Assembly: GCA_016208975.1 (NCBI GenBank)
Contig: JACQXA010000004.1
Span: 1,675,015-1,739,014 of the forward strand
Origin: Nitrospinota bacterium
GTDB lineage: Bacteria > Nitrospinota_A > UBA7883 > JACRLM01
Direction: 5' to 3'
Length of the DNA: 64,000 nucleotides
A program made the position numbers and the translations under genes. Positions 38,445-42,082 of this stretch are shown piece after piece. Numbering within the stretch: position 1 is the first letter of the stretch; every line of letters starts with the position of its first letter. The notes under the pieces are model-generated. The model had not been told where the DNA came from and did not search any database. It was given only the letters and a program-made list of their open reading frames with translations.

Positions 38445-38618
38445 AATAGATGTAATCAGGGGTGGTTGTCAAAGGAAAAAATGCGAATCACCAGAAAAAA
38501 CTATGAGAACCTATTGAATATATGGGGCGATGCTTAGGTTCTGGGTTGTTAATCATATCCACTATTACAAACGATGGTTATGGGGAATATAATTTGGGTA
38601 AGGGAGGATACTGGCCCC

Positions 38619-39722
38619 ATGAAACCCATCAAAATCTTTGGCGAGAACCTGGATGCGGGTACGCTGGAGCAATTTTACTCGGCAATAAACCAGCCATTCG
38701 CCGTGAAAGGGGTTTTATTGCCGGACGCCCATGTGGGCTACTCGCTCCCCATCGGCGCGGTGGTGGCCACCGATGGGGTAATACTTCCAGCTTGGGTGGG
38801 GTACGACATCGGGTGCGGAATGTGCGCCGTGAAGACGCCGTTGATGATGGACGAGGTGGAACCTCACCGGGTGGATATTTTCAAAAGCATCTACCGCGCC
38901 GTACCCACCGGGTTCGACCACAATAAACGTCCGGAGCCTTGGGATTACGAGAAAATCCCCATGACCCCAACCCTGAAAAAAATATTCGAAAGGGAAAACG
39001 GTTTGACCCAGTTGGCCTCTCTGGGCGGGGGCAACCATTTTATAGAAATCAGCCACGATGAAGAGGGGCGCGTTTGGGTGGTGGTGCATTCCGGATCCCG
39101 CCATGTGGGTCATTCCGTGGCCACCCTTTACATGAAACAGGCCAGCGGCTCGGAAAAAGCCAAAGAGGGGCATTATGGGTTCCAGGTGAAATCCAATGCG
39201 GGGCAAGACTACATAACCGACATGAATTTCTGCCTCAAGTTCGCCCTGGAGAACCGCAAACGCATCATAGAGCGTGTCTTACGGGAGGTTTATTACTATA
39301 CGCGCAGGGGCGAACAGCCGGAGACGCTGGAGTTCATCAACCGGCATCATAACCACGCCGAGGAGAAAGAGGGGCTGTGGATCCATAGAAAAGGCGCAAC
39401 CCATGCGGAAGCCGGCATGGAAGGGGTCATACCCGGAAACATGCGGGACGGTAGTTTTATCACCGTGGGGAAGGGGAACAAGGAGAGCCTGTGTTCATCG
39501 TCCCATGGCGCCGGGCGGGCCATGAGCAGAAACAAGGCCAAGGAAAACATTTCGATGGATTCGTTCAAAAATCAGCTTTCAGGCGTCACCGCCCGGGTGG
39601 AAAGGGCCACGCTGGACGAGGCCCCCGGAGCCTACAAGGACATTTTCGAGATAATGAGGCTACAAAAAGACCTGGTGGATGTGAAACACCATCTAAAACC
39701 GGTCATAAATATCAAAGGCTGA
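38619..39722 (+). CDS. rtcB: RtcB-family RNA ligase
   Basis: A 367-residue enzyme of the RNA-splicing ligase family, which joins 2',3'-cyclic phosphate or 3'-phosphate RNA ends to 5'-OH ends with GTP and Mn2+. Visible active-site elements are LPDAHVGYSLPIGAV, the metal-binding Cys in DIGCGMCAVK, GGGNHFIEI, HSGSRHVGH and the guanylated His in SSSHGAGRAMSR. It is the shorter RtcB form. ATG 38619 has GGGAGG about 11 bases upstream; frames upstream have no ribosome site. It converges with the AbrB-PIN gene, 3 bp apart. No archease or rtcR is nearby. Confidence 0.92.
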   Translation: MKPIKIFGENLDAGTLEQFYSAINQPFAVKGVLLPDAHVGYSLPIGAVVATDGVILPAWVGYDIGCGMCAVKTPLMMDEVEPHRVDIFKSIYRAVPTGFDHNKRPEPWDYEKIPMTPTLKKIFERENGLTQLASLGGGNHFIEISHDEEGRVWVVVHSGSRHVGHSVATLYMKQASGSEKAKEGHYGFQVKSNAGQDYITDMNFCLKFALENRKRIIERVLREVYYYTRRGEQPETLEFINRHHNHAEEKEGLWIHRKGATHAEAGMEGVIPGNMRDGSFITVGKGNKESLCSSSHGAGRAMSRNKAKENISMDSFKNQLSGVTARVERATLDEAPGAYKDIFEIMRLQKDLVDVKHHLKPVINIKG

Positions 39723-39725
39723 TTT

Positions 39726-40325
39726 TCAGCAGGCCGCCTCGCTGGAAAGGAACGGTAACGATTCCGTCCAGAACCCCCAGTAAACCATCACCGCGTCGCC
39801 GAATTTTACCTCCCGCTCCACGTACGCTTTCAGGGCTTTGCGGAATATGTCGTCCATCTCGCAATGGAAGAACGGGGTGTTTAATATTGATTCCACCACT
39901 TCGGCGACGGTTGTCTTGTCGAATTTGTAAACAGCCTCCAAAACGTTTACCGTTTCCAGTATGGCGGAGGGAGAGATTGTGTAAGGCATCCCGCCGCCAG
40001 TGGTTTCCGTGAATTCTTCGGTGAAACGCTCTTGCCAGCGGTAATCGCCGGATAGGATGCGGAAAATAAGTAAAGTGTCCCTTTTGCCTTTGGCGTATTC
40101 CCGGGCCACTTCCTGGATCAACCGTTCCCGGTATGCGCCTGATCCGGAGCCGAGGTGCGTAATTACCCCGGCGTAATCCAGGATGGTTTTGCCCTTTTTA
40201 AGCAGGACGCCGTCTCTGGTCTCGCCCAGCACAAGCGCGTCACCCTCACGGATGTCGAGACGCTCCATGACTTCGGCGGGGAGTTCAATTAAACCGTTAG
40301 CTAACACCTTAGCGGTACTGTACAT
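39726..40325 (-). CDS. AbrB-type domain fused to a PIN-like domain
   Basis: A 199-residue protein. Residues 1-47 form a SpoVT/AbrB-type DNA-binding module (AKVLANGLIELPAEVMERL, IREGDALVLGE, GVLLKKG). A linker resembling an antitoxin tail (about 48-80) leads into a PIN-like nuclease fold: D83 (RDTLLIFRILSGD), E124 (SPSAILETVNVLEAVY) and D177 (VKFGDAVMVYW) align with three of the four acidic PIN residues. The protein ends at 199, before the fourth acidic residue would be expected. AbrB and PIN are usually separate antitoxin and toxin genes; here they appear as one chain. A good promoter precedes it. The PIN assignment is by pattern and not certain. Confidence 0.65.
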   Translation of the reverse strand: MYSTAKVLANGLIELPAEVMERLDIREGDALVLGETRDGVLLKKGKTILDYAGVITHLGSGSGAYRERLIQEVAREYAKGKRDTLLIFRILSGDYRWQERFTEEFTETTGGGMPYTISPSAILETVNVLEAVYKFDKTTVAEVVESILNTPFFHCEMDDIFRKALKAYVEREVKFGDAVMVYWGFWTESLPFLSSEAAC

Positions 40326-40365
40326 GCCACAAACCCCGAGCGGATGCGAATTGATGTTTTATAAA

Positions 40366-40394
40366 TTATTACCCTTTCATTAACTCAAGGTCAA
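40366..40394 (-). promoter_or_regulatory. Sigma-70-type promoter of the AbrB-PIN gene
   Basis: On the minus strand TTGACC (40389-40394) and TAATAA (40366-40371) are separated by exactly 17 bp, about 40 bp before the ATG at 40325. The surrounding DNA is AT-rich. AbrB-type proteins often repress their own promoter, so this is a plausible autoregulated site. Confidence 0.6.
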
Positions 40395-40483: not shown

Positions 40484-42082
40484 CTAAATGAGAGTGTCTT
40501 TAAGGAAACCGCCGTCGTCTTTTTCCGGGTAATCCAGGTTATAGTGCAACCCCCGGGATTCTTTTCGGAGCAGGGCGCATTCTACTATCAGCCCGGCGTT
40601 GACGGCCAGGTTTCGAAGTTCTATAAGGTCTGGAGTTATAACAAAGTTCCAGTAGTAATCCTCGATCTCTTGCGTCAGCAGGGCTATCCTGTTCCTGGCG
40701 CGGGCCAGGCGCTTGTCGGTCCGGACGATACCTACATAGTTCCACATAAGCCTGCGGAGTTCGTCCCACATGTGGTTAATTACAACCTGTTCGTCAGCGT
40801 CCACGGCCTTGCCGTAATCCCATTCAGGTATGGGCCCGTTTGGAACGCAACGCCCCTGTATCCAACCGGCGGCGGATTTGGCCGCGCGGTCGGCGAATAC
40901 CACCGCCTCCAGAAGGGAGTTGGAGGCCAGCCTGTTGGCGCCATGCACGCCGGTATGGGCGCATTCGCCCGCGGCGAAAAGTCCCGGCACCGAGGTTTTC
41001 GCCCAAAGGTCTGTCACTACGCCGCCGCACATGTAATGGGCGGCTGGCACAACGGGGATCATCTGCCGGGTAGGGTCGTACCCGAATTTCAAACATGTGG
41101 CGTTAATGGTGGGGAAACGCCTGGGAAAAAGCTCCGGATCTATGATGGTTGTGTCCAGATACACGAAATCGGCGCCGCTTTTTTTCATTTCCCGGTCTAT
41201 GGCGCGGGCTACCACGTCTCTTGGGGCCAGGGAGCCCATGGGGTGGTACCCTTCCATGAAGGTTGCGCCGTCGGCGCGTTTCAGCTGGGCCCCTTCACCC
41301 CGCACGGCCTCGGATATAAGGAAAGACTTGGCCAGCGGGTGATAAAGGCAAGTGGGGTGGAATTGCATGAACTCCATATTGGCTATCCTGGCCCCGATGC
41401 GCCTGGCCATGGCTATTCCGTCGCCGGAAGCTATATCCGGGTTGGATGTGTATAGATAAACCTTCCCCACGCCACCGGTGGCCAGAAATGTGGCCTTGGC
41501 GGCGAACACGTCTATCTCCCCGGTTTCCTTGTTCATGACATAGGCGCCAAGGCAGGCGTCTTTTTCCTGGCCAGGCTCTATTCTTCCCCCGCTCATTTTA
41601 GAAAGGGAGATAAGGTTTACTCCGATATGGTTTTCGAAGATGGATATGTTTGGGTTCTTGCGGGCGGTGTCTATAAGGGCCCGCTCGATTTCGGACCCGG
41701 TAAGGTCGTTGGCGTGTACGATGCGCCTGCGGCTATGCCCCCCCTCACGGCCCAGGTCCAGCCCTGTCTCACCGCTGGAAAACCTTGCGCCAAACTCCAT
41801 CAACTCCTGGATCATGGCGGGGCCGTTCTCCACAAGTATCCGTACCGCGTCCAGATGGCACAATCCGCCGCCGGTTTCCAGTGTGTCGCGGATGTGAAGG
41901 TCGAAAGAATCGTCGCTGGCCAGGGCGGCGGCTATGCCCCCCTGGGCCTGGTTGGTGTTGGATTCGGCAAGGCCTTTCTTGGTCACCAGCGCCACCGTCC
42001 CCAAGCGGGCGGCCTTAATGGCGAAAGATAATCCGGCAATGCCGGAGCCGATAACTAGAAAATCGAATTCCCTTCTTGCCAT
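40484..42082 (-). CDS. nadB: L-aspartate oxidase NadB
   Basis: A 532-residue FAD enzyme that oxidises L-aspartate to iminoaspartate, the first step of NAD synthesis. The FAD-binding VIGSGIAGLSFAIKAA is at the N-terminus. The succinate-dehydrogenase-like core includes TNQAQGGIAAAL, FMQFHPTCLYHP and the second FAD segment GLFAAGECAHTGVHGANRLAS. The helical C-terminal domain (about 430-532) is complete. Length matches NadB (about 540). nadA and nadC are not in the window. It is transcribed alone from the minus strand. Confidence 0.95.
   Translation of the reverse strand: MARREFDFLVIGSGIAGLSFAIKAARLGTVALVTKKGLAESNTNQAQGGIAAALASDDSFDLHIRDTLETGGGLCHLDAVRILVENGPAMIQELMEFGARFSSGETGLDLGREGGHSRRRIVHANDLTGSEIERALIDTARKNPNISIFENHIGVNLISLSKMSGGRIEPGQEKDACLGAYVMNKETGEIDVFAAKATFLATGGVGKVYLYTSNPDIASGDGIAMARRIGARIANMEFMQFHPTCLYHPLAKSFLISEAVRGEGAQLKRADGATFMEGYHPMGSLAPRDVVARAIDREMKKSGADFVYLDTTIIDPELFPRRFPTINATCLKFGYDPTRQMIPVVPAAHYMCGGVVTDLWAKTSVPGLFAAGECAHTGVHGANRLASNSLLEAVVFADRAAKSAAGWIQGRCVPNGPIPEWDYGKAVDADEQVVINHMWDELRRLMWNYVGIVRTDKRLARARNRIALLTQEIEDYYWNFVITPDLIELRNLAVNAGLIVECALLRKESRGLHYNLDYPEKDDGGFLKDTLI

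Follow-up and report, generated by a model that had tools for sequence, protein, structure and literature searches.

A merged AbrB–VapC reading frame in a Nitrospinota genome, probably a worn-out toxin–antitoxin relic

The pairing of an AbrB-type antitoxin with a PIN-domain toxin is among the nearly ubiquitous toxin–antitoxin (TA) combinations (PMC2701414). In other families, fused TA chains are known. EzeT joins an antitoxin to a zeta-type kinase, Slr1999 of Synechocystis joins HicA to HicB, and these single-chain proteins are thought to derive from the fusion of two-gene operons (PMC4826407, PMC4963859). Decay of chromosomal TA loci is also documented, for example for ccdO157 of E. coli (PMC7167474, PMC2654758). 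Here, we describe an open reading frame (ORF) of a Nitrospinota bacterium, located at positions 39726..40325 on the minus strand of a 64,000-nucleotide window (the whole stretch of DNA analysed), in which an AbrB-like and a PIN-like part share one polypeptide. The merged ORF is probably a worn-out relic, neither a working toxin nor a new kind of protein.

The ORF begins with ATG, encodes 199 residues followed by a stop codon, contains no internal stops, and lies between the convergent rtcB (38574–39722) and the co-directional nadB (40484–42082). Codon usage and GC content by codon position in both of its halves are like those of the neighboring genes and unlike those of the other frames. Scored by codon log-likelihood per codon, the AbrB part reaches 0.27 and the PIN part 0.35, while four neighboring genes give 0.31–0.50 and the other frames give negative values. 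A short stem-loop with a T-rich tail is found at 39718–39730, at the end of the ORF and in the narrow gap to rtcB; its occurrence is at chance level in the scan. The rtcB–nadB neighborhood was dropped as a test of insertion, since the neighbors of rtcB, judged from ORF translations, differ among the relatives.

Residues 5–47 (40185..40313, minus strand) form an AbrB/MazE swapped-hairpin domain according to profile matches and alignment. An AbrB/SpoVT-like N-terminus had been claimed in an earlier note on this DNA, and the TIGR01439 AbrB profile bears this out, matching residues 5–44 above its cut-off (32.0 vs. 28.3 bits). Of the two Pfam families proposed there for a check, MazE (PF04014) falls 0.4 bits short of its cut-off (24.3 vs. 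24.7 bits), and PIN (PF01850) gives no match up to an E-value of 10. A HypC-like Pfam match (E 0.06) lies far under the family cut-off and was discarded. The signature positions of AbrB/MazE serve DNA binding in the family, and the Lys-Gly-Gln...Arg signature is absent from the merged ORF: Leu12 replaces a Gln and Met20 an Arg, both found in 21 of 21 relatives, and Asn10 stands where 19 of the 21 have Lys. The domain is followed by an antitoxin tail, residues 48–82 (40080..40184, minus strand), delimited by alignment with intact relatives and sharing the KGKTILDYAG stretch with them. By analogy with VapB/MazE, this tail may be the toxin-binding part.

The second half, residues 83–185 (39771..40079, minus strand), derives from a PIN/VapC toxin. 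No PIN family in Pfam, NCBIfam, or PADLOC matches the merged ORF, and PF01850, which matches all 22 relatives in alignment A4, does not recognize it. However, a profile built from 24 intact VapC relatives, with the query excluded, ranked it first of the 810 window ORFs, at E = 1.6e-21 against E = 0.086 for the runner-up. Residues 79–185 share 37% identity with the intact VapC of G009, a genome from the same Nitrospinota order. As the earlier note had stated, Asp83, Glu124, and Asp177 lie in PIN contexts; they occupy the catalytic columns, which hold Asp in 30 of 30, Glu in 29 of 30, and Asp in 30 of 30 intact relatives, respectively. The PIN signature positions serve metal binding and catalysis in the family. 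Two residues after the first Asp, however, the merged ORF has Leu85, where every relative has Asn or Ser (27 and 3 of 30). The first reading had missed Leu85 as well as the loss of the AbrB DNA-binding signature.

The C-terminal tail (residues 186–199 plus the stop codon, 39726..39770, minus strand) bears no recognizable similarity to the C-terminal strand of VapC by alignment, profile, or model. The [T/S][F/Y/L][D/N] motif, which carries the fourth acidic residue in all 30 relatives, is likewise not recognizable. The earlier note had the chain ending before the fourth acid. In one alignment Glu196, four residues from the end, occupies the fourth-acid column, but the tail resembles the VapC C-terminus no more than chance would allow. 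A second frameshift into a VapC-like C-terminus, in an alternative frame (VLDGIVTVPFQRGG...), was suggestive by eye and was rejected, because stretches drawn at random from the window did as well: its score was reached by a fraction of 0.17 of random stretches in that frame and 0.44 over three frames.

Residues 70–199 were modeled with AlphaFold2 using 22 relatives, with two plasmid rows left out. The model (mean pLDDT 80) has seven helices, low-confidence sequence in place of the first PIN strand, and no C-terminal strands, and thus departs from the alpha/beta PIN fold. The intact G009 toxin, modeled from the same sequence set, shows a complete PIN fold with fully alternating strands and helices (pLDDT 96.8). 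Fold searches were read by ranks and E-values only, since TM-scores and rmsd were poor even for this intact control. In the PDB, PcrIIC1 and VapC20 ranked on top for the merged-ORF model, with no match below E 0.001, whereas the G009 model matched VapC structures with E-values down to 6e-5. The earlier note had made its PIN assignment depend on a PIN fold within residues 80–199; the predicted structure departs from it in part, being helical with neither the first nor the last strand, yet homology to PIN/VapC is clear by sequence. As a separate observation, PcrIIC1 (PDB 8wmm chain G), the partner of CbCas9, is the best PDB sequence relative of the VapC subfamily by profile (E 5.2e-7), which suggests a PIN/VapC kinship for this CRISPR accessory protein.

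The two halves have separate counterparts in G009. Residues 7–82 and 78–185 of the query match two overlapping ORFs in different frames, an AbrB antitoxin (PF04014, 41 bits), 46% identical to the N-terminal half, and a VapC (PF01850, E 1.2e-16). The AbrB–PIN fusion reported earlier is supported, and all relatives examined have the antitoxin and toxin as two adjacent genes, the arrangement that the earlier note had called normal. Judged as an AbrB–PIN (VapBC) system, the merged ORF has homology to both antitoxin and toxin but, unlike its two-gene relatives, consists of one ORF rather than adjacent genes.

The 15 pairs mapped in other genomes all have the antitoxin stop at the first Asp of the toxin or ahead of it, within a range from a two-base overlap with that codon to 21 bases before it; 14 of the pairs are mutually out of frame, and in the remaining one the genes share a frame but are separated by a TAG. 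In the pairs of G009, Candidatus Megaera, and G107, stop and Asp codons overlap directly. In the merged ORF, Arg82 aligns with the last residue of the G009 antitoxin and Asp83-Thr84 follow directly, placing the junction (40076..40085, minus strand) where the antitoxin stop of the relatives meets or shortly precedes the first Asp codon of the toxin. In several intact pairs (L002:1515-1517, L012:2000-2002), the TGA stop of the antitoxin overlaps the GA of the first catalytic Asp codon, a site common to both genes.

No homologue with the same fusion was found: several hundred genomes and plasmid, phage, and viral collections gave no other single-frame AbrB–PIN protein at the sensitivity used, and a limited literature search met no report of one. 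Two candidates were rejected, namely, G109 (L022), which has two ORFs in the same frame with a TAG between them, and G311 (L063), in which the AbrB half was not found. Among 23 other genomes of the phylum, the only orthologue is the two-gene form in G009. Tree branches for the query and G009 are 0.96 vs. 0.60 and 0.79 vs. 0.42 for the two halves, a weak comparison given the low supports of nearby nodes (59–68). Aligning both gene sets jointly with the query gave a misalignment, which was set aside. The same genome has three intact PIN genes. An intact-looking AbrB–PIN pair at L010 (C4:1544773-1548117), with a normal KYQVVIPQEVR motif, is a natural comparator, and the PIN genes of L009 and L011 adjoin an RHH-like and a Phd-like gene, respectively, neighbor families being judged by eye.

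On balance, we favor, with reasonable though far from full confidence, the explanation that the merged ORF is what remains of an ordinary chromosomal AbrB–VapC type II operon that was merged by an insertion or deletion, is inactive, and is recently decaying. The ancestor would have been an ordinary TA operon with overlapping genes; an indel at the overlap would have removed the antitoxin stop and turned two frames into one. As far as such distant relatives show, this is the simplest history. The merged protein would then have lost, on the PIN side, the Asn/Ser after the first Asp, the fourth acid, and the strands at either end, and, on the AbrB side, the DNA-binding residues, leaving a decaying locus. 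Because catalytic and fold elements of PIN and the DNA-binding residues of AbrB are gone, RNase activity is most likely absent and operator binding most likely little or none; the protein thus seems to have lost its activities, and drift rather than selection may lie behind the losses. The degraded active site and C-terminal strand support the retired toxin proposed earlier. That the junction is an artifact of sequencing or assembly, joining two truly separate genes, is improbable. Short homopolymer runs do adjoin the site (AAAAGGG, coding strand), and a single indel would be enough, but one miscall cannot explain why invariant sites of both halves carry in-frame substitutions and the C-terminus is missing; moreover, long neighboring ORFs are unbroken, and ORFs take up about 92% of the window.

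Codon-position divergence of the merged ORF shows no clear relaxation relative to intact pairs. In simulations, 25% of runs kept an ORF of equal length open through 40 random substitutions, and 5% did so through 100. Long neutral drift is therefore unlikely, and either the decay is recent or some role has been retained. The open frame, normal codon usage, and intact-like codon-position pattern argue against a long decay. The same features would fit a new role, in which a catalytically dead PIN tethered to an AbrB-fold dimerization domain makes protein contacts, e.g., sequestering other VapB or VapC. Conservation of the hydrophobic core and toxin-binding tail and the presence of the other, intact AbrB–PIN pair (L010) point the same way. 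Yet neither the first nor the last PIN strand is modeled, and the distribution in the phylum, with only the two-gene form of G009 elsewhere, gives no sign of long-term retention, so that we regard such a role as unlikely, although it deserves some weight. That a dead VapC covalently fixed to its AbrB antitoxin is kept specifically as a decoy or scaffold, for instance sequestering an active VapC or VapB of the same genome, is somewhat more doubtful. Signature residues are lost in both halves, which argues against a working TA protein or a repressor. An autorepressor, with the AbrB part still on its own operator and the dead PIN as a dimerization or corepressor module, would suit the TIGR01439 match and a promoter-like site just upstream of the ORF (TTGACC-18-AATAAT, 40365..40394, minus strand, 10 of 12 matches). 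The site is no commoner than chance (one in the scan vs. 1.1 expected), and with Gln12, Arg20, and Lys10 all replaced, we consider this reading quite improbable; the earlier suggestion of a protein kept for autoregulated DNA binding is not supported. Still less probable is a working single-chain TA protein resembling EzeT, with an active PIN RNase kept quenched in cis by the antitoxin part. The three PIN acids and the fused chains of other families would allow it, but Leu85, the missing C-terminal strand, and the unrecognizable fourth-acid motif speak against an active toxin domain, and the fold is incomplete in the model.

The preferred reading of a merged, decaying operon has wider meaning. 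A small indel may convert a two-gene TA system in which the stop overlaps the first catalytic codon into one ORF, and such merging of frames could plausibly begin a path to loss or to a single-chain TA protein. The case also calls for caution in annotation, since merged TA relics resemble novel domain fusions.

The merged ORF can thus be set beside the known systems. Like AbrB–PIN type II modules, that is, VapBC with an AbrB/MazE-type antitoxin, it has two halves each homologous to its counterpart and in the usual antitoxin–toxin order; it differs in being one ORF instead of two and in having lost the signature residues of the active site, fold, and DNA binding. With EzeT and Slr1999, it shares the presence of toxin and antitoxin in one polypeptide, and Slr1999 is likewise without a fused homologue elsewhere. 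These proteins, however, belong to other families, and the toxin domain of EzeT is active, whereas that of the merged ORF is degraded. Finally, it resembles ccdO157 of E. coli as a chromosomal TA module losing function through mutation, with the difference that in the Nitrospinota ORF the merging of the reading frames would itself be part of the decay.
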